Virus record (IMG/VR): IMGVR_UViG_3300037116_000250
Coordinates: 1 to 46,558 of that record
Direction: 5' to 3' (one strand)
DNA: 46,558 nucleotides
Source of the DNA: a virus
Program-made: the position numbers and the translations under genes
Part shown: piece by piece, positions 9,269 to 46,422 of the stretch
Layout: each line of letters opens with the position of its first letter
How positions within the stretch are numbered: the first letter of the stretch is position 1
The notes under the pieces: model-generated
Told to the model about the DNA's origin: nothing
Database searches by the model: none
What the model saw: only the letters and a program-made list of their open reading frames with translations

Positions 9269-11041
9269 TTACGCGGCGTTGTAATCGGGTGTACCCAGGC
9301 CTACCCACGCGCCCCCGACGGATTCCTGCTCGCCGTTCCCGTCCTCGAGGTCGAACGCCTCCTCACCGGCTGAGAGCGGGTCGATGTCGTCGGGCTCGGC
9401 CGGCCGGCAGATCGTCTTCTGCTGTACCATCGTGTCGATCACGTCGTCGTGTTCGAGCTGCGGGAAGTTGTCGAGCTGGTGCTTGAGCGGCTCGCAGAAC
9501 CCCTTGCGCAGCCACCAGCGCCATTGATTCCAGCGCGGCTGCAACGTCTTGATGTTCACGACTTTCGAATCGCTGTTGCCCGAGGACCATTCAACGATCT
9601 CGATGTGCCCGAGCCCCGCTTCGCGCATGACCGGGCGCAGCAGATCGACGTAGAGCCCCTGCATGCCGCCGCCGCGCGTCTCGATGCTCACCTTAGAACA
9701 ATGATAGTGCCGCACGAGCACGACGATGCGCAGCAGTGCGGCGTCGAGCGGGAGCTTGTGCTCCTCTGCGTGCAGCGTCCACCACACATCGGAGGAGTCG
9801 TTCCCGTTGACGGTGAGTCCGTGAAAGTCTGACTTCTTGGATGCGCGGCGCCCTGCAGGGTCCCAGGCCAGGGTAACGTAGAGCGAGCGGCGCGTTCCGT
9901 TCGGAAGTTCGACGAACGGAATCGTGTCGAGCACGAGATCAAAGTCCTTTTCATGCGCTTCGATCTGCCGGAAAATCTTGGCGCTTTCCTCGATCGGCTC
10001 GTTGCGGTACCAGACCGAGAACAGATATTCTTCGAGTTCGATCGACTGCTGCATGAGAAACTTCTCGTTGAGCAGGACCGGATAGTACAGCGAGCCGTCG
10101 GTGTTCCACGCCGAGCGAATCGTCACGTTGAACAGGTAGTTCTTCAGATCGCTCTTTTCGAGCACCGCGCCGTGCAGCTTGAGCGCTTCCTCGCGGCGCT
10201 TTTGCAGCCACCAGTACACGTCTTGGCGATGGTAGCGCGTACCGATAACGAGCATGCCGCCGTGCGTAGCGAGTTGCGGGAAGTACTCCTGGAGCGCCGT
10301 GCGCACTTTTTCGCGCATCGTCTCGGTGTCGACGTTCTTACGGCTCTGGATGTCATCGACGACGATGAGATCGTAGTGCCCGCCGGTCTTGGAAACGTCG
10401 GCGCCGGCCGTGTCGATCGATGGGTCTTTGAGCCCGGTGTGCCGCGGCGCGACCATGATCGCATCGGCTTTCCATTGCTCGGCGAGCTTGGCCCAATCGC
10501 CGTAGAACAGGCGGAACGTCTCGTTGCGCTCGTACTCGTACTGAATGGCGGCGAGCATCTTCTTTGCTTCGTCGTGCCGGTGGGACGCAATGAGCACGCG
10601 ACCGTTCGGATTGAAGCAGAGATAGTACATGATCGCGGCTTTGGCGACCGAACTTTTCAGGCTCCCGCGCGGTTCGAGGTCGAGTTCTTTGGTCTGCATC
10701 TGCCGGTCCGCGTTATTGCGAATCGGCAGCGCAGCTTCGGCCCGTGCGCACATCGGGCCGTGAACCGGCCGGTAGAGCAGACCGTTGCCGCCTTGCTCGA
10801 TCGGTGCATAGCCGAGCACGACTTCCATCCAACGGTAGAGGCTGGATTCCGCGTCGATCCGGCGCGCGAGCGTGAACGGATCGAGACTCGCCGTGTACTC
10901 ATCGAGCGAAAAGTACGTCGGCTCTTTGATTTCGACTTCCGCTTTTTTCTTGCGGTCAGCGCCGGTCGTGCCGTTCTTCCAGCCGGTCGGCATCGTGCGC
11001 TTGCGCAGCGGCGCGGGCGCCGGAAAGTCGAACGGGTTCAT
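9269..11041 (-). CDS. terL: Terminase large subunit
   Basis: 590 aa, the usual size. The ATPase domain has a Walker A-like PRGSLKSSVAK (~122-132), with the basic residue early in the loop as common in terminases, and a Walker B YDLIVVDDIQ (~222-231). VIGTRYHRQDVYWWL (~265-280) matches the coupling-motif region. The nuclease domain has TLAWDPAGRRASKKSD (~387-402), an acidic middle, and HDDVIDTM (~530) supplying the last metal ligand. It packages concatemeric DNA through the portal. A separate small subunit was not recognised. It lies upstream of small basic genes and the portal. Confidence 0.92.
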   Translation of the reverse strand: MNPFDFPAPAPLRKRTMPTGWKNGTTGADRKKKAEVEIKEPTYFSLDEYTASLDPFTLARRIDAESSLYRWMEVVLGYAPIEQGGNGLLYRPVHGPMCARAEAALPIRNNADRQMQTKELDLEPRGSLKSSVAKAAIMYYLCFNPNGRVLIASHRHDEAKKMLAAIQYEYERNETFRLFYGDWAKLAEQWKADAIMVAPRHTGLKDPSIDTAGADVSKTGGHYDLIVVDDIQSRKNVDTETMREKVRTALQEYFPQLATHGGMLVIGTRYHRQDVYWWLQKRREEALKLHGAVLEKSDLKNYLFNVTIRSAWNTDGSLYYPVLLNEKFLMQQSIELEEYLFSVWYRNEPIEESAKIFRQIEAHEKDFDLVLDTIPFVELPNGTRRSLYVTLAWDPAGRRASKKSDFHGLTVNGNDSSDVWWTLHAEEHKLPLDAALLRIVVLVRHYHCSKVSIETRGGGMQGLYVDLLRPVMREAGLGHIEIVEWSSGNSDSKVVNIKTLQPRWNQWRWWLRKGFCEPLKHQLDNFPQLEHDDVIDTMVQQKTICRPAEPDDIDPLSAGEEAFDLEDGNGEQESVGGAWVGLGTPDYNAA

Positions 11042-23331: not shown

Positions 23332-25143
23332 TCAAGCCTTAACGAGTTCCAAATGCGGTTTTTCTTCCGAAGCGCCGTGTTTTCCGTTCTTCGGCTTCGC
23401 ATCGTCCTCCGGCTTCGGAGGCATGAGCCTCCATATCGGATTGTTCCGATCGTGCTCTAGGTCGATGAACCCGCGTTCTAAGTCCCGGCCCTTGAAACTG
23501 ACCCTTGCTTGGGGCTTCCGATCGTCGTGTTCCATAATCATGATCGCATCGACGGCGGCTTGCGAGCCCAAAGTACCGGCTCCGGCGTCAAACGGATCGG
23601 TCGAACCCATCTTTCCTTTGCCTTTAGAGGCATGATCGACCATGATAACAGGGATTTTGTGCTGCTGGGACATCTCCCATATCGGGCGGAACATGCGGTA
23701 TTCCGCTCGGAAGGCGTTGCCTTTGCCGCTATTCTTCGGATCGCCGGGACCAACGAACGCCGCTACGGTGTCGATAACGACCAAGCGTGCGGCTGGGTGC
23801 TGGATCACCCAATCCGCCACGCGGGCGAGGCCGCCGTCAAAGAGCGGCGCCCAGCGGGTCGCGAAGTGCAGGTTGGCCGGATAGTCGGCGAACGCACCCA
23901 GGAGCTGCTCGAGCCGCGCGCGCAGCCGGCGCTCGGAATCCTCGAGCGCAAGGTACAGCACGTCGCCCTGAACCGTCGAGAACCCGGCGTTGTGCCCGGC
24001 CGCAAACGATCGCATATCGCGTGGAAAGAGCGGGCGGCCCAACGCGACCGCGAGCGCCATCTGCAATGCGAGCAGGCTCTTTCCGGCCTTGGGCTTGCCG
24101 AAAAGCTGGGTAAGGCCATCGTGAACGAGGTTGTCGATCGCATAGCCCAGCGCGGGCAGCGTCTTGGCCCCGAGCTCGCCGGCCGTCACGAACACCTCGT
24201 GTTCGCCCAGCGAGAGCCGTTTGAGCCGCTCTTTGCGGCAGATCGATTCCCAGGTCGTCTCGAGCTCGGCGTGCGGCAGCGGGGGCGAACACGCCGCGTT
24301 CCAGGCCTGCACCGAGGGCCAGTACATGCTCCACGACGATTCATCACCGACCCCGGCGATGAGCTTGCCGACGTACGACGCGAGCGTTTCGTTGCGCTCG
24401 CCCTCACCCGTACCGAACATCCCGACGCGCCAGCGTTCCTGACCGAGCACGCGCTCGTATTTCGCGATGCCCTGCGTACGCGTGACGACTTCGAACACCC
24501 AGCCGGGGAGCTCAGCGATCCCTTCTTCGGGCGGCGTGTCCCAGGTGTAGGAGCAGCCCGACGGATGAAGGCTCGGCGGCGCGAGCACATAGCCGCCTTC
24601 GGCGCGCGTATCCAGGCCGGGAAGAAAACGCGCGTTGGTTGGTACGACCAGCGGCGCGCGGTCCGGTCCCATCGGCGGACGAAAGTAGAAGTGCCGGCCC
24701 TTTGCCGTACGCGCGACCGCGGTCGGGATCTGTTCGAGCGCAGCGATCAGCGCGTCGGCCGCCGCGTACGCTTCGATCAGTTTTTCGTGCGAGCCGTACC
24801 GGCGTACATAGTCGTCGTAAACGCGCTGCACGTTCTCATCGAGCGTTCTACTCTGGCCCGCGTCAAGATTAGGCCGCGTCGAGCGGTCGTCGTCGATCAC
24901 TGCGAGATTCGAGATCGCGCCGGTGACGATCCCCACGCCGGCCGAGGGCCAGCGGTGTGCCCAATCGCGCAGCATGTCGTACGTGGCTGCTGTCTCTTGG
25001 TGTTTTTTCCACGACACCAGCGGCTCTTTTGCTTCGGCAGCGTGGTCTTTGCCGGGCGTCGATGCGTAGCGGCGCGTTTTGATCGGAATTGTGGAGAAGC
25101 CGAGATTGGCGTACCGATAGAAGTACGTCTCGATAAAGTTCAT
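23332..25143 (-). CDS. Primase-polymerase fused to RepA-like helicase
   Basis: 603 aa, ATG start with AGAGG upstream. The N-terminal half is a primase-polymerase (archaeo-eukaryotic primase type): GVGIVTGAISNLAVIDDD (69-86) carries the catalytic acidic pair, then GRHFYFRPP and the GGYVLAPPSLHPSG region typical of the Prim-Pol domain. The C-terminal half is a RecA-fold ATPase: GKPKAGKS (~346-353, Walker A), LALEDSERRLR, and LVVIDTVAAFVGPG (~449, Walker B). Such fusions unwind DNA and prime it at the origin. It is the last of three leftward genes before the inverted repeat. Confidence 0.88.
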   Translation of the reverse strand: MNFIETYFYRYANLGFSTIPIKTRRYASTPGKDHAAEAKEPLVSWKKHQETAATYDMLRDWAHRWPSAGVGIVTGAISNLAVIDDDRSTRPNLDAGQSRTLDENVQRVYDDYVRRYGSHEKLIEAYAAADALIAALEQIPTAVARTAKGRHFYFRPPMGPDRAPLVVPTNARFLPGLDTRAEGGYVLAPPSLHPSGCSYTWDTPPEEGIAELPGWVFEVVTRTQGIAKYERVLGQERWRVGMFGTGEGERNETLASYVGKLIAGVGDESSWSMYWPSVQAWNAACSPPLPHAELETTWESICRKERLKRLSLGEHEVFVTAGELGAKTLPALGYAIDNLVHDGLTQLFGKPKAGKSLLALQMALAVALGRPLFPRDMRSFAAGHNAGFSTVQGDVLYLALEDSERRLRARLEQLLGAFADYPANLHFATRWAPLFDGGLARVADWVIQHPAARLVVIDTVAAFVGPGDPKNSGKGNAFRAEYRMFRPIWEMSQQHKIPVIMVDHASKGKGKMGSTDPFDAGAGTLGSQAAVDAIMIMEHDDRKPQARVSFKGRDLERGFIDLEHDRNNPIWRLMPPKPEDDAKPKNGKHGASEEKPHLELVKA

Positions 25144-27106: not shown

Positions 27107-28549
27107 GTGGACCTATGGGCGCACCAGCAACGTGAGATCGACGAGCACGCCTTCGAGCCGGGGTGGTTCCAGTTCTGGGACCCTCGTACCGGAAAAACCC
27201 GGCCGGCGGTTATCAAAATCGCGCTCTGGATCGCGCGTGCTGGTGTACGCCGCGTGCTCGTCGTCGCACCGAAGTCCGCGTGCCCGGTGTGGCTGCAAGC
27301 CGACGAACTCGGCCGGTTCGATCCGGCGCACGTTCGCATCATCGACCTCTCGGACGGACCGATTCCCGATCGACGTGCAATGATCGCTGCGCTCGATGAC
27401 ACGTTACCGACCGTGTTGGTCATCAATCGTTCGGTGCTCAAGGCGCTGACCGGGGACTCTGCTCATCCTGGCCCGCTGCGAAAATGGGCGCCGCAAGCGC
27501 TCGTGCTCGACGAGAGCCACGAGTACAAGACACCGTCGGCGCAGTGCTCGCGTGCCGCGCTCGCCCTCGCTAAGGGGGCGCGTTTTCGGCTCGGCCTGAC
27601 CGGCACGCCCGATCCCGAATCGTACGAAGACTTCTACGGACAGTTCAAGATCATCGCGCCCAACGTGTTTCGGTTCCCCGACCCCAAGACCGGCGTGCTC
27701 AAGAACACCACGCTCGCCTCGTTCGAGGAACACTATATCAAGCGCAACGTGGTCTATCCGGACAAGATCGACGGTTATACGAACGTCGATGACCTGCGCG
27801 CTCGCATCTTCAGCCGGGCCAGCCGGGTGCGGCAGTCCGACTGCTTCGATATGCCCGCCGTGCGCGACATCATCGTGCCGGTCCCACTGACCCGCAACGC
27901 ACGCGAACTCTACGACGAGCTCGTGCAGAACACCGTCGCGGACTTCTTTGGTATCGACATCGACGCAACGCATCAGCTCTCGCGCCTGACGATCCTGCAC
28001 CAGCTTGCTGCGGGCTTCGTGCGCAACGAGGGTGGCGTCGAGTGGGTCCACGATGGCAAGATCACCGCCGCGCTCGAGTACGTCGAGACGATGCTGGCCG
28101 CCGGCAAGCGGCTCGTGCTGTTCCACCACTACCGGGCCGAGGGCGAGCGGCTCGTCGGCGCAATCCGCAAGGCCTTCGGACGGGAGATCGTTCACGCGCT
28201 GCACGGGGACACCAAGGGTTCGGACCGCTCGGCGACACCGTTTTTGACGTGGCCCAAAATGCAGGTCTTCGTCGCGCAGGAGGACACCGCGAACCTCGCG
28301 ATCAGCCTACGCGAAGCCGATCACGTCGGCTGGACGAGTTGGGGGCCGAAATCCGACGTACACTACCAGGCCCGGCAGCGGATTTTCGATGACGCGCACG
28401 CAAAGCCGGGCGGACTGACCTACACCTATTTCGAAGCGCCGAACACCGCCGATGCGTTCATGCGCGCAACGATCAAAAAGAAACAGACGGCATCGGAAAT
28501 GCTGCTGGACTACGGCTTTGAGCGCGCGGCGCTAGGAAGAATAGCATGA
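27107..28549 (+). CDS. SNF2/SF2-type helicase
   Basis: GTG start directly after the previous stop. The 480-aa product has WDPRTGKTRPA (24-34, Walker A), VLVVAPKSACPVWLQ (motif Ia region), VLDESHEYK (~132-140, DESH box) and LGLTGTPDP (~161-169, motif III), then in the second RecA domain LVLFHHYRAEGERLV and DRSATPFLTW, and SLREADHVGWTSW (motifs V-VI). Typical of phage SNF2-type translocases that support replication and recombination. It is followed immediately by a small unknown gene. Confidence 0.88.
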   Translation: MDLWAHQQREIDEHAFEPGWFQFWDPRTGKTRPAVIKIALWIARAGVRRVLVVAPKSACPVWLQADELGRFDPAHVRIIDLSDGPIPDRRAMIAALDDTLPTVLVINRSVLKALTGDSAHPGPLRKWAPQALVLDESHEYKTPSAQCSRAALALAKGARFRLGLTGTPDPESYEDFYGQFKIIAPNVFRFPDPKTGVLKNTTLASFEEHYIKRNVVYPDKIDGYTNVDDLRARIFSRASRVRQSDCFDMPAVRDIIVPVPLTRNARELYDELVQNTVADFFGIDIDATHQLSRLTILHQLAAGFVRNEGGVEWVHDGKITAALEYVETMLAAGKRLVLFHHYRAEGERLVGAIRKAFGREIVHALHGDTKGSDRSATPFLTWPKMQVFVAQEDTANLAISLREADHVGWTSWGPKSDVHYQARQRIFDDAHAKPGGLTYTYFEAPNTADAFMRATIKKKQTASEMLLDYGFERAALGRIA

Positions 28550-28902: not shown

Positions 28903-31342
28903 CCCGGATTGTACGCGCTGCGAACTACATAAGACAGCGCGGACGGTCTGTGTCGCCGGCAACGGTCCGAAAGACGCGCAGGTCGTGTTCGTCGGCGAGG
29001 CGCCCGGCTACGACGAGGATTCGCGCGGCGTGCCGTTCGTTGGTCGTGCGGGCGCGATGCTCGATGCGCTGCTGCGCGAGAACGGCTTTCGCCGCGAAGA
29101 CGTGTTCGTAACAAATGCGGTGCGCTGCCGTCCGCCCGAGAACCGCGATCCAAGCGTCAAGGAGCTAAAGGCCTGTCGTGAGTACCTCGTCAACGAACTT
29201 CGCTCCGTTCAACCCAAGTACATCGTCGCTCTGGGGAACACCGCACTGCGCGCTCTCACCGGAGATTCCGGCGTCGGCAAGCACCGCGGCGCCGTCCTTC
29301 CTGCTCACCCTGACTTTGGCAACAGCAGCAGCGTTGTCGTCACCGCACATCCTGCCGCCGCACTCCGCTATCCGCATTTCGCCGACCAAATCCGCGAAGA
29401 CCTAACGTTCCTGCGCCGCACGCTCGACGGCTCGTTCTCGGCCGTGCCGCTGGAGTGGACGTACGCAACGGACGCCCAAGGTCTGACCGGGCCAGTGTGG
29501 GCGTTCGACTACGAAACCAACGCGCGCGAGCCTCGCGATCCGTTCCTGGCGGCGTACCTGTGCGCGATCGACGTAGGCGCGGGTCCGGTCAAAGTCTTCG
29601 GCGGTGAGTCCGTCGGCATCGCGGCATGGCAACTCGACAACGCAGCGCAGCGCGGCGTGCGCGTGGTCGGGCACAACGCGAGCCGCTTCGACCGCGTGAT
29701 CGGCCGGGCGCTGTTTGGCGGAAACGTGCGCTGCGACGACACGATGCTCATGGGCTTTCTGCTGCACGAAGAATGGGGCGCCGCTAAGCGCCTGAACCTC
29801 GAATCGTTGTGCGCAGCCGAACTCGGCGTCGAGCCCTGGAAGCGCGATGTCGTGTGGAACTGGCGGGATGCTGCGAAGATCCCCTGGGACAAGGCCGCGG
29901 AGTACAACGCCCGCGACACGCGCTACACCCGCGAACTGTTCACGGTGCTCGAACGCAAGCTCAAAGAGGACGGCGCCGGAACACTGTTTGCGGGCGCGCT
30001 CTGGCGCGTCTACGACCGCCTGCTGCTGCCCGCGAGCCGGGCGCTCGCCGATATGGAGCAGCGCGGCCTATACGTTAACCGTGCGAACTGCGACGAAGCC
30101 AGCGCAGAGTTTACCGCGCAAGCCGAACGGCATCTTGCGACGATCAACGCTATTGCCGGCGCACAGGGCCTGCCCGACTTCAATCCCCGATCGCCGACGC
30201 AGGTCGGCGAACTGCTGTTCAAGCGCCTGGGCCTGCCGCCGGTCAACTGGACGGCCTCGGGTACGGCGTCGACCAACGTCGAGGCGCTCAAGACGCTGCG
30301 CGAACTCGGTGCGGCGCCCGATCTGCTCAACGCGATCCTGCTGTACCGCAAGGCCCTGCGGATCGTGAACACCTATTCGACCAAGTTCGCACGGCTCGCC
30401 GACTGGCAGAGCATGATCTATTCGTCGTACTCAATGGTGAACACGGACTCCGGGCGCACGGCGAGCTTCGACCCCAACGCTCAGAACATCCCGCGCAATA
30501 AGCGCGTGCGCCGGATCATCGGAGCACCGCCGGGCAAGGTCGTGCTGGCAGCGGATTTCTCGCAACTCGAACTGCGCACCGGGGCCAGTCGATATGTCTT
30601 CGACGAGCCGAACCTGCGCGCGGCTTTCGAGCGCGGCGAGGACCCGCATCGCCTCTTGGCCGCCTCGATCACCGGTAAGCCGCCGCATCTGGTGTCGTCT
30701 AAGGAACGCACCGACGCCAAGCGCGCGAACTTTTTGTTCCTGTACGGCGGCGAGGAAGATATGTATATCCGTAAGCAGCTCGAAGATTACGACATCGTCA
30801 AGTCGCGCGAGGACGCCCGGCGCGAGCGCGACGCGTTCTTCTTCCGCTGGAGCGCACTGCCGGCGGGCTACGAACGGATCATGACCGAACTCGACAAGAC
30901 GGGGCAAGTCCGCAGCCCGCTCGGTACGCTGCGGCGGCTTCCCAACGTCTTTGCCGATAACCGGAGTGTGAAGACCGAGGCGTACCGCGTTGCGATCAAC
31001 TTTGTAAACCAGTGCTTTGCGTGGCACCTCGCCGCTATTGGCCTGGTGCTGCTGGGGGGCGCCGGACTCGATGTACGGTCGTTCCAGCACGACGCGTACT
31101 TGATCTATGTCGACGACGATGAGAACGCGGTGCGCCACGCATCGACGCAGGTCCGGTATCTGCTCGAACACGGCGTGCCGCAGGTGCTGCGCTCGGAGTT
31201 CAACCTGGAGTTCGACGTACCGCTGAAGGTCGACGTGAGCGCCGGAACGGCGTGGACCGACGATGACCGGCTGTGCGAACACGGGATCTGGATGCCGCGA
31301 ACCGCGTGCCCGAGCTGCGTGGCATCGAGGATCGCTGCTTGA
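28889..31342 (+). CDS. Family 4 uracil-DNA glycosylase fused to family A DNA polymerase
   Basis: The glycosylase part has NPDCTRCEL (two Cys), VVFVGEAPGYDEDSRG, VTNAVRCRPPENRDP with KACREYL (two more Cys) and HPAAALRYP: a complete family 4 enzyme with four Cys for a 4Fe-4S cluster. Next comes a full 3'-5' exonuclease (FDYET, VGHNASRFD, YNARDTRYT) and a polymerase domain (VLAADFSQLELR, DAKRANFLFLYGG, FQHDAYLIY). The equivalent of E. coli Pol I Phe762 is Phe. Motif C reads HDA instead of HDE. The first standard start (GTG 28985) would lose two cluster Cys; the frame opens at 28883 and a CTG at 28889 is the only near-standard start upstream. Coordinates here assume that CTG. Confidence 0.85.
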   Translation: MPSLNPDCTRCELHKTARTVCVAGNGPKDAQVVFVGEAPGYDEDSRGVPFVGRAGAMLDALLRENGFRREDVFVTNAVRCRPPENRDPSVKELKACREYLVNELRSVQPKYIVALGNTALRALTGDSGVGKHRGAVLPAHPDFGNSSSVVVTAHPAAALRYPHFADQIREDLTFLRRTLDGSFSAVPLEWTYATDAQGLTGPVWAFDYETNAREPRDPFLAAYLCAIDVGAGPVKVFGGESVGIAAWQLDNAAQRGVRVVGHNASRFDRVIGRALFGGNVRCDDTMLMGFLLHEEWGAAKRLNLESLCAAELGVEPWKRDVVWNWRDAAKIPWDKAAEYNARDTRYTRELFTVLERKLKEDGAGTLFAGALWRVYDRLLLPASRALADMEQRGLYVNRANCDEASAEFTAQAERHLATINAIAGAQGLPDFNPRSPTQVGELLFKRLGLPPVNWTASGTASTNVEALKTLRELGAAPDLLNAILLYRKALRIVNTYSTKFARLADWQSMIYSSYSMVNTDSGRTASFDPNAQNIPRNKRVRRIIGAPPGKVVLAADFSQLELRTGASRYVFDEPNLRAAFERGEDPHRLLAASITGKPPHLVSSKERTDAKRANFLFLYGGEEDMYIRKQLEDYDIVKSREDARRERDAFFFRWSALPAGYERIMTELDKTGQVRSPLGTLRRLPNVFADNRSVKTEAYRVAINFVNQCFAWHLAAIGLVLLGGAGLDVRSFQHDAYLIYVDDDENAVRHASTQVRYLLEHGVPQVLRSEFNLEFDVPLKVDVSAGTAWTDDDRLCEHGIWMPRTACPSCVASRIAA

Positions 31343-31405: not shown

Positions 31406-32434
31406 ATGATCGACCCGTCTGCATTCGCGACGTTCCCGGTTCTCGATACGTCGATGAGCCAACTTGACACCTGGAGCCGCTGCGATCGGCGGTACATGTA
31501 CCGCTATGTGCGCGGTCTGGTGCCCGTCGGCGCGTCCGATGCGATGATCTGGGGCACGCTCTTTCATCGCGCCGCGCAGGAGTACTACCGCAGCATCCAG
31601 AGCGGCCTCACCGAAGCATCGGCCAACGTCAACGTGCATTGGATCATCGACAACACGACCAAGGTCGAGAACCAGTACCACGGCGATTCGGAGATCACGC
31701 TCTCGCAAGAGCAGCGCGAGACGATGCACGACTGCTGGGACTACTACTACCAACAGACGGCCAGCAAAGACGAGTGGGACGAGATCGTTAAGGTCGAGGA
31801 CCCGATTTTCTTGGTCATCGGCTACAACGGTCAGCCCGTGCTGCGCATCCGTTCGACGCTCGATATGATCGCGCGCAAGAACGGCAAGCTCGTCGTGGTC
31901 GATCACAAAACGACCGGCGATGTCGAGCAGTCCGTTGAGTTCCTCGCACTCGATTTTCAGGTGCGCGAGTATCCGTTAGCCGTGCGGGCGTACTACGAAG
32001 AAGACCCGATCGTGTGCTATAACATGATCGCGCGCGAGGTGCCGCCGGGCTTTGGCCGCCGGCCGCTCACGACCGACACCGGCCGCAAGCGCAACGCGGA
32101 CACGCTGGCGAACATGCAGCGTCCCGAACGCTATCTGCGCCGGGAATGGCTCTCGTTCTCCGAAGCGCAGCACAATTCGTTCCAGTTGAACCTCGTACAG
32201 ATCGCGCTCGCGTTGCAGTTCGAGGGGAACGCCGGTATCTGGCCGCGCCGGATTGTCAAGATGGGCGGCATGGCGTGCTCGGGGTGTCCGTACTTTGCGA
32301 TCTGTACGGCTGAACTCGACGGTCGCAAGATCGCCGACGACGCACCGCTGGTCACGATGGCCTTCACGCGCGATCCGTTGCTCGAAAAGCCGAAGATTTA
32401 CATTCCGCCCTCGGGAAGCCCGTTCGCGCGGTGA
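31406..32434 (+). CDS. PD-(D/E)XK nuclease (RecB/Cas4-like)
   Basis: 342 aa with its own promoter and RBS. The N-terminus has SQLDTWSRCDRRYMYRYVRG, matching the start of RecB-nuclease-like domains, and a WGTLFHRAAQEYY helix carrying the conserved His. The active site is RSTLDMIARKNGKLVVVDHK (~147-168), with Asp and DHK as metal ligands. CSGCPYFAIC (~291-300) with one earlier Cys suggests a Cas4-type iron-sulfur cluster. It probably acts in recombination with the ATPase and SSB-like neighbours. Confidence 0.85.
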   Translation: MIDPSAFATFPVLDTSMSQLDTWSRCDRRYMYRYVRGLVPVGASDAMIWGTLFHRAAQEYYRSIQSGLTEASANVNVHWIIDNTTKVENQYHGDSEITLSQEQRETMHDCWDYYYQQTASKDEWDEIVKVEDPIFLVIGYNGQPVLRIRSTLDMIARKNGKLVVVDHKTTGDVEQSVEFLALDFQVREYPLAVRAYYEEDPIVCYNMIAREVPPGFGRRPLTTDTGRKRNADTLANMQRPERYLRREWLSFSEAQHNSFQLNLVQIALALQFEGNAGIWPRRIVKMGGMACSGCPYFAICTAELDGRKIADDAPLVTMAFTRDPLLEKPKIYIPPSGSPFAR

Positions 32435-32625
32435 CGCACGAACTGCACACCGTCGAGCGTTCCGGTGAGTTCTCGTCCTGGCGTGCGAAATACCGCTTCG
32501 TCTGCTCGTGCTCGACGCGCGGGCCGTGGCGTAAGGCCGATAATTATGGTGAATCGACAGCAGCACGAGACGAGGCTGTGGGCGATTTTGTCTATCATAA
32601 ACGAAAGGGGAGTGTTGCCGCATGA
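32431..32625 (+). CDS. Hypothetical protein (64 aa)
   Basis: GTG start overlapping the nuclease stop (GTGA) and a TGA overlapping the ATPase ATG. The sequence VTHELHTVERSGEFSSWRAK is followed by FVCSCSTRGPW with a CxC and a charged tail. The tight overlaps make it real. Function unknown. It carries no P-loop, which is relevant to the ATPase downstream. Confidence 0.6.
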   Translation: MTHELHTVERSGEFSSWRAKYRFVCSCSTRGPWRKADNYGESTAARDEAVGDFVYHKRKGSVAA

Positions 32626-33362
32626 TCGTTGCACACATCGACACCGAGGGCGGTCGCGGTAGCATCGCCGATCTCATCGAGTCCGGCAAAGTCGTGTCCT
32701 ACGACGGCTCGACCTATGAGAAGGCCGAGCAAATCTATTGGGCGCTCTACTACGGCCGGATCAAGTGCGACGTGGTCGTGCTCGACACGCTCACCACGCT
32801 CGTCGACCGCTACGTTCGGGACGTGACGCTCGATCCCGAGAACATCCGACCCGATCAGGGGCAAACGTGGTGGAGCCAGCGCAAGAAGATGCGCACGAAT
32901 CAAGACGTGTGGAACATCGTCAACTTTGGCATCGGCCAGCTCATGAGCGGCGTGCGCAACCTGCCGCAGCCCTCGATCTTCCTTGCGCACGAAACCGAGC
33001 GTGACGATCCGACCGCCGAAGTGGAGGTCGATCGGCACATGCCAGCGCTCACACCGAAGATCCTCAAGATGGTCATGGCGTACTCCGATCTCGTCATGCG
33101 CATCTATAAGAGCCCGACGCCGTTTGCGCTCGCCGGAGCCAACTGGCCTGCCAACACGCGCGTGCTGCAACTCGAAAACACCGCCAACGCCTACACGGGC
33201 GTGCGGCTGACCCCGACCGTGACCGGCACGCTGCCGCAGTATATCCCCGATCCGACGCTCGCCAAGCTCGCGACGGCGATCGGTTTTCTTCCTAAAGCGA
33301 TGACGGTCTACGGCTTTCCGAAGGTCGGCAAGACCGTGCTCGCATGCACGATGCCAGAGTAA
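32622..33362 (+). CDS. Recombination-type P-loop ATPase (Sak4/AAA_24-like), circularly permuted
   Basis: The 246-aa frame starts MIVAHIDTEGGRGS, the strand that normally follows the P-loop helix. It continues with CDVVVLDTLT (49-58, Walker B), IFLAHETERDD (~119-129, sensor) and the usual C-terminal region, and then ends with AMTVYGFPKVGKTVLACTMP and a final Glu (226-246), where GFPKVGKT is Walker A. Family members have Walker A at the N-terminus. Joining the C-terminus to the N-terminus restores the canonical order. It lies between a nuclease and an SSB-like gene, the usual setting of Sak4-type recombination ATPases. Confidence 0.82.
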   Translation: MIVAHIDTEGGRGSIADLIESGKVVSYDGSTYEKAEQIYWALYYGRIKCDVVVLDTLTTLVDRYVRDVTLDPENIRPDQGQTWWSQRKKMRTNQDVWNIVNFGIGQLMSGVRNLPQPSIFLAHETERDDPTAEVEVDRHMPALTPKILKMVMAYSDLVMRIYKSPTPFALAGANWPANTRVLQLENTANAYTGVRLTPTVTGTLPQYIPDPTLAKLATAIGFLPKAMTVYGFPKVGKTVLACTMPE

Positions 33363-33374
33363 CAGGAGATCACG

Positions 33375-34166
33375 ATGTATCCACCCCCAGGCCCGCCGTC
33401 GACCGGACAGAGTTTTCGGCTCGGCGATCACGCCGGTCAGCGCGGAGCGAATCCCGGCGACTACATGGCGCGCGTGACCGCGCTCGAACCCGCAACGTCC
33501 AAGGACGGCAACCCGCAGCTCAAGATCACAACGCACCTGCTCGGCGCCGCGCAAGGGCAGCAGCACGCGTGGTGGTACTCGCTCTTGCCGCAGGCGCTCT
33601 GGCGGCTGTTCCAAGACCTCATCGCGGCCGGCGTCGATCCGAACTTCGATCCGGGGCCGCCTGACGCAGCGCGGTACGCGGGGACCTTCGCTCCGGCGCT
33701 GGTCAACCGCGCGTTCCAAATCCGCGTGACGGCGAACGGTGAGTACACGAACACCAAGATCGTCGGTCCGGTCCAGCTCGGTCCCGACGGCAACCCGGTC
33801 GCATTCGGTCCCGGCCCCGCGCCGACGGCAGCACCGCCGCAGCAGTACGCACCGCCCGTCGCGCCGTCGGCACCCGCCGGAGCACCGTCAGGATGGCCTC
33901 CTCCGGCCGCTGTGGGCGTTCCGACGAGCCCGACCGGACCTGGACAGGGTCAACCGGCCGCGAACGTCCCACAGGCTCCGCAATACGGCGCTCCACCCGC
34001 GCCGATGATGGCGCCCGGACCCCCGCAGCCATCGCCGTACGCTCCGCCCGCCGGGGGCGCTGCCGTTGAGCACGCGCAGCAGCCGTTCCAGCAGTACCAG
34101 CCGCAACCGGCCGGAGCGCCGCCGACGGCCTACGCTGACGTGTCCGGGCTCTTTCGGCAGCAGTAG
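33375..34166 (+). CDS. SSB-like protein (DUF669 type)
   Basis: ATG with CAGGAG upstream. The N-terminal ~120 residues show an OB-fold-like pattern of phage DUF669 proteins: GDYMARVTALEPATSKDGNP, LKITTHLLG, then a helix (WRLFQDLIAAGVDPN) and ITVTANGEYT-like strands (FQIRVTANGEYTNTKIVG). The remaining half is a Pro/Ala/Gly/Gln-rich tail, like the flexible C-terminus of SSBs but without an acidic tip. It probably binds single-stranded DNA and works with the ATPase just upstream. Confidence 0.72.
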   Translation: MYPPPGPPSTGQSFRLGDHAGQRGANPGDYMARVTALEPATSKDGNPQLKITTHLLGAAQGQQHAWWYSLLPQALWRLFQDLIAAGVDPNFDPGPPDAARYAGTFAPALVNRAFQIRVTANGEYTNTKIVGPVQLGPDGNPVAFGPGPAPTAAPPQQYAPPVAPSAPAGAPSGWPPPAAVGVPTSPTGPGQGQPAANVPQAPQYGAPPAPMMAPGPPQPSPYAPPAGGAAVEHAQQPFQQYQPQPAGAPPTAYADVSGLFRQQ

Positions 34167-34169
34167 CCG

Positions 34170-34520
34170 ATGGCGGAGGGTGCGTTTCAGACCAAGGCCA
34201 TCGCGCACATCCGATCGCGCGGCGGCTACGTGGTCAACCAGTGGGGATCTCCGCTCGCTCGAGCGGGGGTCCCCGACCTCCTATGCGGCTTTCGCGGGTT
34301 CTTCGTCGCCTTCGAACTCAAGCACCCCGAAGGACCGCTCGACCCCGGGCCGCTGTGCCGGCGCAACGATCGGTTCGCCGAGCCTGCGCAGCAGCGTCAC
34401 ATCGCGCGCATCCGGGAAGCCGGGTGCATCGCGTTCGTCGTGAACAACCTGCGGCAGGTCGACGCCGTGCTCGATATGGTGGAGAAGTATGGGACAGCCG
34501 ACATCGCCGCAACTCGTTAG
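34170..34520 (+). CDS. VRR-NUC domain nuclease
   Basis: 116 aa, three bases after the previous stop. The motif order fits VRR-NUC: SRGGYVVNQWGSPLARAGVP then DLLCGFRG (catalytic Asp in GVPDLL), FVAFELKHPEG (Glu and Lys of the E-x-K motif), and a C-terminal helix QQRHIARIREAGCIAFVV. Such small nucleases resolve branched DNA or process replication forks. It overlaps the HTH gene by 32 bases in another frame. Confidence 0.82.
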   Translation: MAEGAFQTKAIAHIRSRGGYVVNQWGSPLARAGVPDLLCGFRGFFVAFELKHPEGPLDPGPLCRRNDRFAEPAQQRHIARIREAGCIAFVVNNLRQVDAVLDMVEKYGTADIAATR

Positions 34521-35000: not shown

Positions 35001-38000
35001 TTACGTGCGGGGCCGCAATCCGCGGCGCTGGCTGCGCTGCATCTCACGCAGTTCGCGCGCTGCCTGCTGCACCGCGAGCGGATCGCCGTCGTTCACGCGC
35101 AAGATCAAATCGTAGAGATGATTTTCCATCGGATGGTTCGCGTCGTTCTTCGCGCGACGGAGCGCCGCCCGCAGGTCCTGCGCGACCGCGTACGCTTGCT
35201 TTGATGCACCGCCGGAGTTCGGTGACGAGTACACCGACGGCCCCACAGCGCCTAGGGCCAAGGTAGGATCGTGCTGCTGCACCGCTTCGATCGGTGCGCG
35301 CACGATACCGGGCGAATAGCGATCAGCGAGCTTCGTTGCCGCCTGACTCCACATCGCGGCAGGTGAAGGCGCGTCCTTGTCCCAGAGCTGCGCGTTGTAG
35401 CCCTTCGGTACGTCCGCCGGCAGAACGGCGGTGAGCCCAGCACCGAACGCAAGACCGGCGAGCGGTGGCAGATGGTTCAGGAACAGGCTCGTCGCGGTCT
35501 TGGCAGCTTCAGTCGGATCGCCGCTCATCGCCGAGCCCAGCCGTACAACATCGGCACCATAACGAAGCTGCGGAAACGGCAGCGAGAGATAGCGCGGGTT
35601 GCCCTTCGCGTCGGTGCCCCAGAGCTTACGCATCGAGAGCGCGCCGCCGGACACCGAACCTTCGTCGCCCTGCATTTGGTTCGCGCTTTGTACGCCGCGC
35701 TGCGGCGCCATGATCGATTGTGGCTTAGTTAGCGCCTGACCGCCGAAGTACCGAAGCTGGCCGCGCATCCAGGTGTAGAAGTACGACCAGTTGCGCAGGC
35801 CCGCGTGACGCTCGGCCGAGGTCATGTTCTCATAGTCACCGAGCACCTTGCGCGTTTGGCGTGCAGCGGCTTCGGGCGTGAGGCCCTTTTGCTCGAAGTG
35901 CCGGAGCGTGACGGCGGCGATGCGGTCCTCGAAATAGCCGAACGTCACGTCCTGGTTCCATTTCGAAGCCGAGATCAGCGCCTTCTGGAGCATTTCGTGC
36001 GGCGCGAGGCCCTGGTACGGCACGGTGAGCAACTTTGCGCGCAGGTGCGGATCGAGCGTTAAGCTGGTGCCGAACTTGGGTGCGCCCGCGTTGTACTTCT
36101 GCGCGCGGTCGATCCAGGCTTTGGGAATCATCGTTCCGTTGCGATCGAGCGCGACGGCGCGTGCGAGCATTGCCGGATTGACGCCCTCGTTGAGCGCGAG
36201 CGGAATAAGGTTGAACGCGGGGTGAAAGCCGACGTTCGCAAGGATGCCCTGGCGGACCGTCGAGTTGAGATTATCGAGCCACGTATGGAACGGATCGGTC
36301 GGACCTTCGTCTTGCGTATGCACCGCGAACCGTTCGCCCCCCGGGCTCTCGCCGCGCTGGAGTTTGGAGAGCGTCGGGTGGCTGTCGATCGCAGCATTGA
36401 CCGCAGCGTTGTGCAGCGCGCGGCCCTTGAGCATCGGCATACCGAGCGATTCGGCAGAGTCGAAGTCGTGGTCGGGGTGTCGGCCGCGAAAGACCTTGCG
36501 CATCTCATCGACCGCAACGTCTTTGTAGTGCGATGCGTGCTCGTGTGCCCACGAGTCGATCTGCTCTTGCGTCCACCCCTGGCCCGCGCCCTTAGCGGTC
36601 GCTTCGGTCAGCGCCCGGTTTTCGCCGTACTGCTGCGCCATCGTCATCGCGCGCTCGTAGCCCGCGCGCCCGCTGCCGACGCTCGCAACGTTGCCGCCGG
36701 GCATCGGAAAGAGGTACTCGATGTCGAACAGCCCGGGCTTGCCGCTCGCCGTTTTCTGCGCGCCGAACGAATCGACCCAGTCAGCGAGATCGATGTAGCG
36801 CCGCAGCTTTGCTTCGTGCATTGCAAGCGCCCCCGAGGGCGTCCAGTCGGGATCGAGTTGCAGTCCCGCCGCTTGACCCGCCTCGAGCGTGTCGTGAATG
36901 CGGCCGGTCGGTACGACGCCGCTCGTCGCCGAACCCTGCGCGCCGCGGCCGACCGACGGGTTCCCCCACGGATCGGACGCTGCAGAGTTCGGCAGATCCC
37001 ACGCGCCGCCGTGCGGGAAGTACGGCTCGGACAGCAACTTGGACGCCATTTCGGGATCGACGCGGCGCAGCTCGTTCTCGGTGTCGGAGATCGCTTGGCT
37101 GATCGTCGTCGCACGGTCGGCGATCGTTCGGCCGCCGACGACGCGCTGGGCGCCGGGATGCGCCTGCGGCCCGGCCGGACTCTCGATTGCGTGAACGATT
37201 TCGACTTGATCGCCGATCGGTGCGCCGCCGAACGTGTCGGCCGAAGTCGCCATATCTTGGGCAATGTGCGGCGCGTTGCCCATATCGCGCGCGAGACTCG
37301 CGTGCGCGTGCTCCCAGGCCACCCCGCCCGCGTCGCCCATGCGCGTGAAGCGGTTGCCGGCGAGCGGTGCTTTCGAGGCGAGGATCGCGAGTTTCTGCGT
37401 CGTCGCGCCGAACTTTCCGACGCGCGCCGCGTCACCGAGCCCCGACGCGCCGCGCGCAAGAGCGCCCCCAGCAGCGCCTGCGGCCATATAGGCCGGATTG
37501 ACGGCCTCGCCAACGAACGTTTCGGCTCCGGTGAGGTACGGATGGTTGGGCTTGTAGCGCGCGAGGTCCGCGTGCATGCCGAGCGCAACTTGCAGCGCCA
37601 TGCCTTGCGGTGTGGTCGGATGCGCAGCGAGGATGCGGCTGCGCATGCCGGGTTGGTTGGCCCAATACTTGATGTCGTCGGGCGCGTTGAAGCCGAACTT
37701 CGCCGCCGTCTCATCGAGGCTTTTACCTGCGTCGGTGTTCGGATCGAACAGCGTGTGCGCGTAGTCGTACAGGCCGCCCTTGTGATCGCCGCTCAAATCG
37801 CGCAGTGCTGCGTTCGCAGGCGCGTAGGTGAACGCATCGCCGAGTTCGCCGACGACCTGGAGCGAGCGCGCTGTGCGGGACTTATTCGTTGCACGTTCGA
37901 GCAGGTCGCGCGTACTGGCCGGATCGCCGCCGGGGCGCGCGCCGAACGGGTCACCGCCGCCGGACCGGCCGAGCATGATGCTGGGCAGTGTCGGACGGCC

Positions 38001-38777
38001 AGTAGGTACAGCGCTCGGTGCGGGCGTCGGGCCGCGCATCGCTTCGGCACCGACTGAACTATGCGAGAGCACCTCGGCGCCGATGCCGTGCAGCGCAGCC
38101 AGCGCGCGTTTCATCGTCGCAGAAACCGCATCATCCTGCGTCTTACGAACAGTCGCGACGTTCGCGGTTTGCTTGGGCGTCGGTGTTGCGGTCGTCGGTG
38201 CGACTTGGAAGTGCAGATGCGGTCCCGTACCAACATCCTCGAATAGATCGACGTTGTGCTGCGCAGCCAGCGTACGAATCTGCGGGTTGTCGATGATGTC
38301 GCGCGTCGAACCGACCCGCTGGAGATTCCCGTGCTCGATAGCGAGCATGAGAAAATTGAGCGTGTGCGGATTCGCGCCAACGGCTTGCCCACCGACAGAG
38401 CCAATGTCAATTGCTCGGCCGTCGAAGTGCGCCGAATCCTTGGCGTGCGGGCCGGAGACAACCGAGGTCACGTCGGATGGACTCAGTCCGTACGGCGCGA
38501 CCGCTTCGTACAGACGCAGGGCCAGCGGATGCGCGGAAATCTCCGGCGCGAGCTTGCCCGAAAAGACCGCGCCGCGCTGCGCAAGATCCGGCGGTGCGTC
38601 GAGCACCGTACCGACATCGTGATTCGAGCTTGGCAGATGCTGCGGTGCGGGCGTCGGACGCGCGGGCGCCGGGCGCATCCCCGGCGGTGTGTCGACGACC
38701 GAACCGATGGGATGCTGCTGAGCCTGTTGCGCTGCGAGATCGGGCGGCGCGTCGACAACGTCACCGACGGGCGGCAT
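35001..38777 (-). CDS. Large virion protein with peptidase-like domain (1258 aa)
   Basis: The N-terminus has three short repeats of V-G-x-V-x-D-x-P-P (4-12, 24-32, 55-63). Residues ~75-195 form a domain with zinc-peptidase (LAS/M15-like) signs: SAHFDGRAIDIGS with His117 and Asp124, and GPHLHFQV with His187/His189. A long middle follows, with helical and aromatic parts such as FYTWMRGQLRYFGGQ. Proteins of this size with a wall-degrading domain are ejected with the genome in podoviruses. Its neighbours are internal-type virion genes. The middle was not matched to any family. Confidence 0.72.
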   Translation of the reverse strand: MPPVGDVVDAPPDLAAQQAQQHPIGSVVDTPPGMRPAPARPTPAPQHLPSSNHDVGTVLDAPPDLAQRGAVFSGKLAPEISAHPLALRLYEAVAPYGLSPSDVTSVVSGPHAKDSAHFDGRAIDIGSVGGQAVGANPHTLNFLMLAIEHGNLQRVGSTRDIIDNPQIRTLAAQHNVDLFEDVGTGPHLHFQVAPTTATPTPKQTANVATVRKTQDDAVSATMKRALAALHGIGAEVLSHSSVGAEAMRGPTPAPSAVPTGRPTLPSIMLGRSGGGDPFGARPGGDPASTRDLLERATNKSRTARSLQVVGELGDAFTYAPANAALRDLSGDHKGGLYDYAHTLFDPNTDAGKSLDETAAKFGFNAPDDIKYWANQPGMRSRILAAHPTTPQGMALQVALGMHADLARYKPNHPYLTGAETFVGEAVNPAYMAAGAAGGALARGASGLGDAARVGKFGATTQKLAILASKAPLAGNRFTRMGDAGGVAWEHAHASLARDMGNAPHIAQDMATSADTFGGAPIGDQVEIVHAIESPAGPQAHPGAQRVVGGRTIADRATTISQAISDTENELRRVDPEMASKLLSEPYFPHGGAWDLPNSAASDPWGNPSVGRGAQGSATSGVVPTGRIHDTLEAGQAAGLQLDPDWTPSGALAMHEAKLRRYIDLADWVDSFGAQKTASGKPGLFDIEYLFPMPGGNVASVGSGRAGYERAMTMAQQYGENRALTEATAKGAGQGWTQEQIDSWAHEHASHYKDVAVDEMRKVFRGRHPDHDFDSAESLGMPMLKGRALHNAAVNAAIDSHPTLSKLQRGESPGGERFAVHTQDEGPTDPFHTWLDNLNSTVRQGILANVGFHPAFNLIPLALNEGVNPAMLARAVALDRNGTMIPKAWIDRAQKYNAGAPKFGTSLTLDPHLRAKLLTVPYQGLAPHEMLQKALISASKWNQDVTFGYFEDRIAAVTLRHFEQKGLTPEAAARQTRKVLGDYENMTSAERHAGLRNWSYFYTWMRGQLRYFGGQALTKPQSIMAPQRGVQSANQMQGDEGSVSGGALSMRKLWGTDAKGNPRYLSLPFPQLRYGADVVRLGSAMSGDPTEAAKTATSLFLNHLPPLAGLAFGAGLTAVLPADVPKGYNAQLWDKDAPSPAAMWSQAATKLADRYSPGIVRAPIEAVQQHDPTLALGAVGPSVYSSPNSGGASKQAYAVAQDLRAALRRAKNDANHPMENHLYDLILRVNDGDPLAVQQAARELREMQRSQRRGLRPRT

Positions 38778-43881: not shown

Positions 43882-46422
43882 CTATCCGTACACGCTGTAG
43901 ACGCGCCGGACCCAGCCGTGCGCGGCGGCAGCTTCGAGCACGAACGCATCGGAGGTGACCGCGACGATGCTGAGTTGCAGGATCTGTCCTTGGACGCCGG
44001 GCGGTACCGAAATGAGCTGACGCGGAATCGTGCTGCCGCTGAACGCTTGGGTGAACGGCGGCGGTGTTGCGCTCGCCGGATTGGCGTCGATCGTGATCGA
44101 GACTTGATCGGTCGGGCTTAGGTTCGCGTTGAGTTCGAGGTACCGCACGCGCATCGTGCCGATGGTCTGTTCTTGCGTCGAGCCGAGCCGCGAGGTGAGT
44201 TTCGAGGTGATCGGTTGTCCGCGATCGGTTTCAGCCGAGAACCACTGCTCGGTGCGCAGTGCGCCCAAAAGCAGCGTTGCCCCGACGACGAGATCAGGTG
44301 ACGTTGCGCGCGTCGCGGCTTCTGGATCGAATGCGAACAGCGTTGTGGAGAACGAAGACTTCCACCACGTCTGCGTGACCGTATCGTAGCCCAGCGAGAT
44401 GCCCTGCGTTGGAAAACTCAGCCAGTACATCCGATCCGAGAACGCGCCGGTCGAGGCGGCAAAGTCCGCCGCACTAAAACCGTCAAGCAGCTTCTTAATC
44501 TTCTGCGAAAGATACGACAGGCTCGACCCGTCGAACATATAGATGCCTTGGTCGGAGAGCCAGAACACGACGCCCAGGGCATTCACGACCGACGCTGCGC
44601 TCGCACAGCCCACATCGAACAGTTTTTGCGCGAAGAAGTCCGACGCGCTTTCACCGTAGACGGCCCAGGTCGTTTTCGATTTGAACGCAACGAGAATCGA
44701 GGACAGCGAGACGACTTGCACGGCAACGTCGCCGGTAACGTGCGAGCCGATCGGGATGACTTGGTTGGTGTTGTCGAAGCCCCAGGGCTCAGCGTAATTG
44801 GAGTACCACAGATCGCACGGCGCGGCCGGATACGTCGATCCGTTCTGCGTATAGGCCGGATAGCCGAAACCCCAGATGCGTTCCTTGTGTGCGCAGATCG
44901 CACCGAACGGTGCCGGCGGATCGCGGTGTAGCACCAAACTCTGTCCGGTTACGACCGCGTCGGGCTCGGTGTCGACGAACGTGACGCCTGCCGGGTTGTT
45001 AGTGGTGTTGCCGACGAACAGCCATTGCCCCAGGCTTCCACCGATCCGGTAGAGGTTCACCTCGACGGTCTGCGGGTCGTTCGAGCCCGGGGCGTTGATG
45101 GTCGGAACCTCGCCGAGAATCAAACCGACCGTCGGCTCGGTCCAATTCGTTCCGATAGCGATGGGCGCTACGTTTTGCTTGACCTCTTGGCCGGAAGTCT
45201 TCGATCCGTAGACGTTGTAGCCGGTCGCGCCGGGGACGCCGGACGGTGACTGCACCGTCACGAGTTCGTTTGCCGGAACGCTGATCGAAGTTTCGCTCGA
45301 CGCGCTCGTTTCTTGGTTTGCGGCGAACACGTAGGTAATGACGTAGTACTCGGTGCGCGCAATGAGCGTTCCACCTGCCGCGGCCGAGAGCACCGGCGCC
45401 GGAGGCGGTGCGACCGTCGTTCCGATCGTACTGACCGGTGGCGGCGCACCCGCAGCGTTGTACGCGGTGACGACGTTGTTCGTATTGATCGGTGTGTTCG
45501 TGCCGCTTTGCAGGTGATAGTTGACAGCGTCGGTGCTGATATAAGTGTTATAGCCCGTCGCGCCCGGCAAGTTCGGATTCGGAAACGTCGTTGAGTCCGT
45601 GACCGTGACCGTGAGTTCGCCCGTCGCTGAGAGCACGATACCGAACAGCGAGGAAAGCCCGGACTCACCGGCAGGCGTGAGCAGTGTGACCGCAACGTAG
45701 TACACGCCGGGCGGAACCGCGCCCGTTCCGGTCGTCGCTGCCACGAGCGGCATGCCCAACAGGAACGAGGTGTTGTTCGCGTTCGGCGGCGCGAGCGTCG
45801 TCCCCATATCGAACGGGCCAAGAATAGGCCCCGGCGAACTCTCTTGGTTCGCATTCGAATACGTGGTGCGCCAGTAGTAGCCCGTGCCGAACAGTCCGAC
45901 CTGGCCCTGCATGCGCGAGACGAGCATCGGTGCGAGCGTCGGTGGATAGATTTGCCAGAACGTCGGTGCGAGTGACTGGTCGAGCTTGATCGCAACGCCG
46001 GTCGGATCGCTGTTGGCTTCGAACAGCCATTTCATGTACGATGCGAACGTAGCGGGCAGCGGGCTCGGAACACCGGGCAGCGCGGCAAGTGAGATCGGTG
46101 CGTACGACCCGCCGCCCGGCGTGAGGGCGGAGAGTTCGAACGCACCGCCGACGTTGCTCGCCGCGATCTTGTCGGGCAGCGCGCCGCCGACGTAGTACAG
46201 CGAAAGACCGAGCAGCGCAGTTCCCGGGATAGACGGTGCATCGAGCACCCGGCCGCGCATCGAGGCGTACGCTTGATACGTGCGGTTGGGAACAAGATTC
46301 GTTACGTCGATCGCAAAGGTACCGTCGACATAGTACGGATCGGTCGACGCGTCCAGGCCCGCGAACGGACCGACGACGAGCAGCGGTTTAATCGAAGCGT
46401 TATTGAATTGCGGTTGACCCAC
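43882..46422 (-). CDS. Tail nozzle-like protein with inserted FN3/Ig repeats (846 aa)
   Basis: The N- and C-terminal parts carry a beta-propeller-like pattern of podovirus tail proteins (P22 gp10/T7 gp12 type): AICAHKERIWGFGYP, VAFKSKTTWAVYGESASDFF, VNALGVVFWLSDQGIYMFDG and TQTWWKSSFS. In between, about residues 235-440, are at least two FN3/Ig-like modules (PPGVYYVAVTLLTPAGESGL; RTEYYVITYVFAANQETSAS). The end of the second (SGQEVKQNVAPIAIGTNWTE) is almost the same as in the 421-aa protein at 2823-4088. The combination fits a tail tube or nozzle protein decorated with surface domains. Confidence 0.72.
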   Translation of the reverse strand: MGQPQFNNASIKPLLVVGPFAGLDASTDPYYVDGTFAIDVTNLVPNRTYQAYASMRGRVLDAPSIPGTALLGLSLYYVGGALPDKIAASNVGGAFELSALTPGGGSYAPISLAALPGVPSPLPATFASYMKWLFEANSDPTGVAIKLDQSLAPTFWQIYPPTLAPMLVSRMQGQVGLFGTGYYWRTTYSNANQESSPGPILGPFDMGTTLAPPNANNTSFLLGMPLVAATTGTGAVPPGVYYVAVTLLTPAGESGLSSLFGIVLSATGELTVTVTDSTTFPNPNLPGATGYNTYISTDAVNYHLQSGTNTPINTNNVVTAYNAAGAPPPVSTIGTTVAPPPAPVLSAAAGGTLIARTEYYVITYVFAANQETSASSETSISVPANELVTVQSPSGVPGATGYNVYGSKTSGQEVKQNVAPIAIGTNWTEPTVGLILGEVPTINAPGSNDPQTVEVNLYRIGGSLGQWLFVGNTTNNPAGVTFVDTEPDAVVTGQSLVLHRDPPAPFGAICAHKERIWGFGYPAYTQNGSTYPAAPCDLWYSNYAEPWGFDNTNQVIPIGSHVTGDVAVQVVSLSSILVAFKSKTTWAVYGESASDFFAQKLFDVGCASAASVVNALGVVFWLSDQGIYMFDGSSLSYLSQKIKKLLDGFSAADFAASTGAFSDRMYWLSFPTQGISLGYDTVTQTWWKSSFSTTLFAFDPEAATRATSPDLVVGATLLLGALRTEQWFSAETDRGQPITSKLTSRLGSTQEQTIGTMRVRYLELNANLSPTDQVSITIDANPASATPPPFTQAFSGSTIPRQLISVPPGVQGQILQLSIVAVTSDAFVLEAAAAHGWVRRVYSVYG

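Follow-up and report, generated by a model that had tools for sequence, protein, structure and literature searches.

A circularly permuted lineage of phage Sak4-type ATPases with a C-terminal Walker A motif

In a 46,558-nucleotide stretch of viral DNA (IMG/VR record IMGVR_UViG_3300037116_000250, hereafter the window) we found a gene for a 246-aa ATPase of the Sak4/AAA_24 type (32622..33362, + strand) whose motifs stand in a rotated order, with Walker A at the C-terminus. The same order and the same breakpoint are present in nine further IMG/VR records (L001, L006, L026, L027, L104, L108, L116, L117 and L119), so that IMG/VR holds at least ten permuted members. Since the rearrangement has been kept in ten divergent phage genomes, an error of assembly can be dismissed, and the permutation is truly inherited. 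The initial annotation of the window had already read the gene as a rotated ATPase of this family, broken in the loop that leads from the P-loop helix to the following strand. Its coordinates, frame and motifs were right, and both the order and the breakpoint recur in every member of the clade. We consider it very probable that the protein is a Sak4-type, core-only ATPase of the RecA/Rad51 superfamily which was permuted once in the ancestor of this phage group, which folds as a RecA core with an ATP site built from both ends of the chain, and which anneals single-stranded DNA.

The permuted gene and its motifs

The reading frame begins with the ATG at 32622, is intact and ends with the TAA at 33360-33362; a Shine–Dalgarno-like sequence, AAAGGGGAG (32604..32612, +), can be read 9 nt 5′ of the start codon. 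The protein starts with MIVAHIDTEGG and ends with MTVYGFPKVGKTVLACTMPE directly before the stop codon. AAA_24 (PF13479) is the sole Pfam family matched (42.9 bits, cut-off 27), and the alignment, counted as two stretches, pairs residues 4-195 with positions 26-194 of the 195 in the model. Among the PHROGs the protein matches phrog_124, the Sak4-like ssDNA annealing proteins (E 1.2e-25). Other members score against AAA_24 with 57.5 (L026), 40.2 (L006), 31 (L001) and 30.8 bits (L027) at the same cut-off.

The new N-terminus consists of strand β2 and the acidic motif DTEGG (residues 3-11, 32628..32654, +; strand 3-7 in the AlphaFold2 model), in which E9 falls in the alignment column of the catalytic Glu of RecA-type cores. 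Walker B had been put at residues 49-58; the motif does lie in this region, but model and alignment place it better at residues 51-55 (VVVLD, 32772..32786, +), where D55 is invariant in permuted and canonical proteins alike. Further along the chain, R195 (33204..33206, +) is aligned with the trans K-x-R of Sak4 (Lys229/Arg231 in phage 52A), the position of the Lys being occupied by Gly193. The canonical C-terminal helix (PTLAKLATAIG) is fused at 33252..33296 (+) to the canonical N-terminal strand, and the distance from the Pro at this joint to GK[S/T] is 24-26 residues in nine of the ten members; in L001, with its insertion of 4 residues, it is longer. The transposed β1/P-loop/α1 unit follows as residues 226-246 (33297..33359, +; strand 226-231 and helix 237-242 in the model). 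It contains the only Walker A motif of the protein, GFPKVGKT at residues 231-238 (33312-33335, +), with the Lys and Thr at positions 237 and 238 and eight residues left before the stop codon, as the initial annotation had stated.

No hidden canonical start or N-terminal P-loop precedes the gene, as the Sak4 frame continues for just 7 codons 5′ of the ATG before it is closed, and the three plus-strand frames encode no G-x4-GK[S/T] motif over 1.5 kb to either side. Thus, an overlooked upstream P-loop, which had been named as a possible source of error, is ruled out. The suggestion that the internal ATG (Met-227) is a relic of the ancestral start had to be dropped: this Met is shared with L001 and is not conserved across the other members. 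Like the other nine members, the protein has the GK[ST] of Walker A and the Asp of Walker B that belong to a Sak4 core, and the collinear succession of Walker A, catalytic Glu, Walker B and C-terminal strands is rotated in all ten. We therefore filed the proteins as a permuted lineage derived from Sak4 and not as canonical Sak4.

Relatives, profile comparisons and phylogeny

Because the permuted protein as query finds near relatives only, members beyond L001 were sought via the neighbouring polymerase and nuclease and via growing alignments. Identity to the window protein is 57% for L001 and 21–28% for five of the other eight that were aligned. All ten members come from metagenomic virus records, and the frames of the nine relatives are intact. 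Every member starts at or near strand β2 and ends past the P-loop helix; in most of them only a few residues separate the start from β2, and L026 has an N-terminal extension of ~24 residues. In the seven records which were searched whole there is no second AAA_24 gene, all AAA_24 matches falling within the permuted gene, and in three of these seven the P-loop part of the Pfam model (positions 3-29) is matched 3′ of the rest in the same frame. One further record, L002, gave a short match only and a relationship was not found. A BLAST alignment in which L026 runs on into the tail of the canonical Sak4 of Serbin/Tlacuache appears to be fortuitous.

Two scans of genome_contigs with a few peptide patterns yielded no permuted protein. 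With tblastn against 50,697 phage records, the window, L116 and L117 proteins had no match, and other permuted proteins matched Sak4s which were canonical where read, so that no permuted cultured phage was among these records. The initial annotation had put forward a tandem gene duplication followed by loss of both outer ends as a route to the permutation, and the rearrangement may have arisen in this way. Intermediates with two P-loops had been proposed as something to look for; none was seen among the Sak4s examined, and by eye the ends of L006 and L026 carry no convincing copy that would be a remnant of a duplication.

A non-circular test of the rotation is provided by a profile built from 21 canonical Sak4s only, which was run on the ten proteins as encoded and after rotation. 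As encoded, they match model positions 45-63 to 194-252 first and positions 22-46 at the C-terminus; in the window protein, residues 5-220 correspond to positions 47-248 (E 1e-19) and residues 226-245 to positions 23-42. The C-terminal pieces alone score low (6-13 bits), since this is a motif of 20 residues. When the sequences are rotated in silico, nine of the ten are matched collinearly in a single piece and score higher: the window protein rises from 69.6 to 92.1 bits, a gain of 22 bits, and L006 from 84.3 to 100.7 bits. Fusing end to start thus restores the family order as had been predicted. The rotated L026 still matches in two pieces, now in the right order, because its extensions intervene. 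At the sequence level, it is the recurrence in ten of ten members together with the gain upon rotation that argues for a permutation.

In an unrooted tree of 31 Sak4 cores from which the P-loop columns had been removed, the ten permuted proteins lie on one side of a branch with support of 100/99, and the same split is obtained when these columns are kept. The same phages also form one group (98/99) in an unrooted tree of the family A polymerases. The canonical motif order is the rule elsewhere in the RecA superfamily, and for this reason, the trees being unrooted, we regard the permuted form as the derived one. These data speak for a single circular permutation in the ancestor of the phage group. 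As the sequences show, a short linker came to connect the former C-terminal helix to the former N-terminal strand, and the chain was opened anew after the P-loop helix, before the strand that follows it.

Conserved residues and gene neighbourhood

Among the first seven members only a dozen columns are invariant, including the GKT of Walker A, the Asp of Walker B, H123, P141, R160 and P211. Across all ten members, at ~25% identity, GK, the Walker B Asp and P141 do not vary; the same holds for H123 and R160, which are not invariant in canonical Sak4s. Between the window and L001 proteins the last 24 residues are 79% identical and the rest 55%, whereas the third codon positions are similar in both parts (54 and 51% identical). 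Selection thus acts on the protein, and the C-terminal segment is not a decaying appendix, in agreement with the initial view that this is a working gene.

Several positions depart from canonical Sak4. In the column of E9, Glu is found in three and Asp in seven of the ten permuted proteins, and canonical proteins have Glu in 86%. Unlike in the 52A Sak4, the trans Lys is replaced by Gly in the window (Gly193) and L001 and is kept in the other eight; the trans Arg is kept in five members including the window (R195) and lost in five others, which do not include L001. Taken together, the trans K-x-R is incomplete in seven of the ten. Given the change from Glu to Asp and the losses of the trans Lys and Arg, hydrolysis or the coupling between subunits may differ from that of canonical Sak4. 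The basic tail which commonly follows the last helix in canonical proteins is absent there in the permuted ones, because this helix now runs into β1.

The gene lies in a module of plus-strand genes. An SNF2-type DNA helicase (27107..28549, +; PF00176, phrog_62) stands 5′ of a fusion of uracil-DNA-glycosylase and family A DNA polymerase (28985..31342, +; PF03167, PF01612 and PF00476, a 3′–5′ exonuclease included), which is followed by a Cas4-like PD-(D/E)XK exonuclease (31406..32434, +; PF12705, E 5e-23; phrog_1218), the permuted Sak4, an SSB-like protein (33375..34166, +) and, in the VRR-Nuc position of the module, an endonuclease (34170..34520, +; phrog_93, E 8e-17). The nuclease and SSB-like neighbours reported in the initial annotation are therefore both in place. 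The order polymerase, Cas4-like nuclease, Sak4 is found in all ten permuted records, and also in cultured phages with a canonical Sak4; an SSB-like gene follows 3′ of Sak4 in the window, L001 and L006.

The SSB-like protein has a conserved N-terminal domain, which is 47% identical to the L001 counterpart, a long linker rich in Pro, Ala and Gln, and a short C-terminal tip. The tips of the window (ADVSGLFRQQ) and L001 (GAATDLFAQG) proteins are similar and recall the partner-binding tip of SSBs. The window protein matches no Pfam or PHROG family and the L006 counterpart matches DUF669; a role as SSB is tentatively assigned.

Some other features of these genomes were observed. An ORF of 64 aa (32431-32625, +) occupies the space between the nuclease and Sak4 genes and runs into the start of the latter, and L006 has a different small Cys-containing ORF in the same place (about 9274-9597). 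On the minus strand of the window, one protein (23332-25143) combines Prim-Pol, PriCT_1 and AAA_25 as a primase-polymerase/helicase, a 1258-aa ORF without Pfam match (35001-38777) reads in its N-terminal part like a peptidase-type virion or lysis protein, and an 846-aa ORF (43882-46422) weakly resembles, in one frame, both an internal virion protein and a head-closure (Hc3) protein. The L001 helicase (264-2309) is seemingly interrupted by an intein which begins with CVPAGTLVSTPYGDIPIEALTVG and ends with GLAVHNC; nested in it is a homing-endonuclease-like ORF (733-1293) without Pfam match at E 0.001.

The activities of studied Sak4 proteins might give a hint of how the permuted protein works. 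The Sak4 of HK620 needs ATP for binding ssDNA, anneals complementary strands, is stimulated by its SSB and does not perform strand exchange (PMC5928155). By analogy, the permuted protein is most likely a working ATP-dependent ssDNA-annealing recombinase. The adjacent Cas4-like exonuclease would resect DNA ends, SSB would coat the resulting single strand, and the permuted Sak4, as expected from homology, would load in an ATP-dependent manner and anneal complementary strands, serving recombination and replication of the phage. The departures at the catalytic Glu and the trans K-x-R would also fit a permuted protein which is not a recombinase but a mediator or regulator like RadB or the Rad51 paralogues, binding ATP without annealing DNA, and these phages leave room for other recombinase families. 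On the other hand, the gene takes the place of Sak4 in the polymerase–nuclease–Sak4 module of cultured phages and is the only AAA_24 gene in the seven records searched, so that we regard a mediator as unlikely, though with a real chance of being right.

Predicted fold and comparison with known systems

AlphaFold2, given an alignment of seven members, predicts the permuted protein with a pLDDT of 82.1 and a pTM of 0.81, the elements running from E3-7 to H213-220, E226-231 and H237-242; residues 221-240, the region of the transposed strand, have a mean pLDDT of 87-90. L111, a canonical protein of the same data set that served as control (pLDDT 82.9), has the elements E23-28, H34-43, E50-54 and, at its end, H251-259. 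In this comparison with a canonical fold, which the initial annotation had called for, the order in the permuted model equals that of the control rotated by one β-α unit. For both models the best solved match is the Sak4 filament of phage 52A (8rc5), with a Z of 20.6 over chain 23-259 for the control and 13.7 over chain 49-257 for the permuted protein; in a sequential alignment the latter loses exactly the strand, loop and helix that have moved, i.e., the P-loop unit. Among the predicted viral structures of BFVD the query TM was at most 0.67 and no full-length match had the same order, and a search of the PDB by sequence with the window protein as sole query gave no match. As judged from the model, the protein should have a RecA core fold without the RecA C-terminal domain.

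The permuted chain is thus predicted to fold as an ordinary RecA core. Both ends of the chain would contribute to the ATP site, the final 16 residues with Walker A and position 9 with the catalytic acidic residue, and D55 of Walker B would be added from the middle. In the 52A Sak4, which forms a filament with ATPγS, the residues shown around the nucleotide belong to two subunits: one provides Lys41, Thr42 and Tyr216, its neighbour Lys229, Arg231 and His232 (PMC11846896). By analogy with this structure, Arg195 would reach in from the neighbouring subunit of a filament.

A more far-reaching proposal is that the RecA/Rad51 superfamily has here its first natural circular permutation and that this altered the working of the enzyme: docking of the terminal unit, possibly in the neighbour, would complete or regulate the ATP sites of the filament, which would be why the form was kept across a deep phage lineage. 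We give this proposal only a small chance of being right. A full segment swap, in which the C-terminal β1/P-loop/α1 unit docks in the neighbouring protomer and completes its ATP site in trans in the manner of donor-strand complementation, appears quite improbable. The unit is indeed terminal and tied to the core by a short stretch, and Sak4 filaments carry ATP at the interface. However, in the model, which is of high confidence, a lone chain forms one compact domain, and docking of the unit within the same chain would account for the nearly constant spacing between the last helix and the P-loop.

Still less probable is a replacement, in which the original P-loop of the core would have disappeared and an unrelated one would have been fused to the terminus later. 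P-loops are short and generic, and several other NTPase profiles weakly match the C-terminal segment, but this segment matches the P-loop part of both AAA_24 and the canonical Sak4 profile, includes the family's strand β1 with Y/F-G before the loop, and ends where the N-terminus resumes; in addition, one rotation requires fewer events. Misassembly, a pseudogene or an annotation error can practically be disregarded: the window is a single metagenomic virus record, but nine others have the same order, intact frames and conserved motifs.

A single rotation within the Sak4 family being the preferred reading, the lineage can be set against known proteins. Like the Sak4s of Staphylococcus phage 52A (8rc5) and HK620, the permuted Sak4 is an ATPase consisting of the RecA core only and is encoded together with SSB genes, but its Walker A is at the C-terminus and theirs is N-terminal. 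The order of polymerase, PD-(D/E)XK nuclease and Sak4 is shared with the phages Serbin (Serratia), Lebethron and Almagne (Pseudomonas), Caudoviricetes ctfzr933 and Gordonia MaVan, to whose Sak4s the identity is about 25–31% over the matched parts; these differ in having the canonical motif order and lie on the other side of the tree. Unlike the strand-exchange recombinases RecA, Rad51 and UvsX, the protein with its 246 aa has no room for an extra (second DNA-binding) domain.

Full-text searches revealed no permuted Sak4, RecA, Rad51 or AAA_24 protein in the literature covered, a set outside which most subscription papers lie, in line with the initial impression that such a member is undescribed. 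Annotation pipelines expecting an N-terminal P-loop will miss or misname these proteins, and with ten members the family is ready for tests of structure and activity. Few ATPases in biology are as conserved as the RecA-type cores. A β-α-β stretch has been proposed as the ancestral seed of the P-loop NTPases (eLife 2020, PMC7758060), and as the break falls inside this stretch, the permuted Sak4s are a natural test of whether it has to be contiguous.

The permuted lineage of Sak4 is new, whereas natural permutation of P-loop NTPases is already known from the GTPases. YawG, YlqF, YqeH and RsgA have the order G4-G5-G1-G2-G3 and cpRAS the order G3-G4-G5-G1-G2 (PMC6912228, PMC2430557). In both cases a P-loop NTPase fold was permuted naturally with its function kept or expected to be kept (PMC6912228, PMC2430557). 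The window protein has no NKxD (G4) motif and matches no Pfam family besides AAA_24, hence no GTPase profile. In contrast to the permuted GTPases, it is a RecA-type ATPase, and its break lies between α1 and β2, theirs elsewhere.
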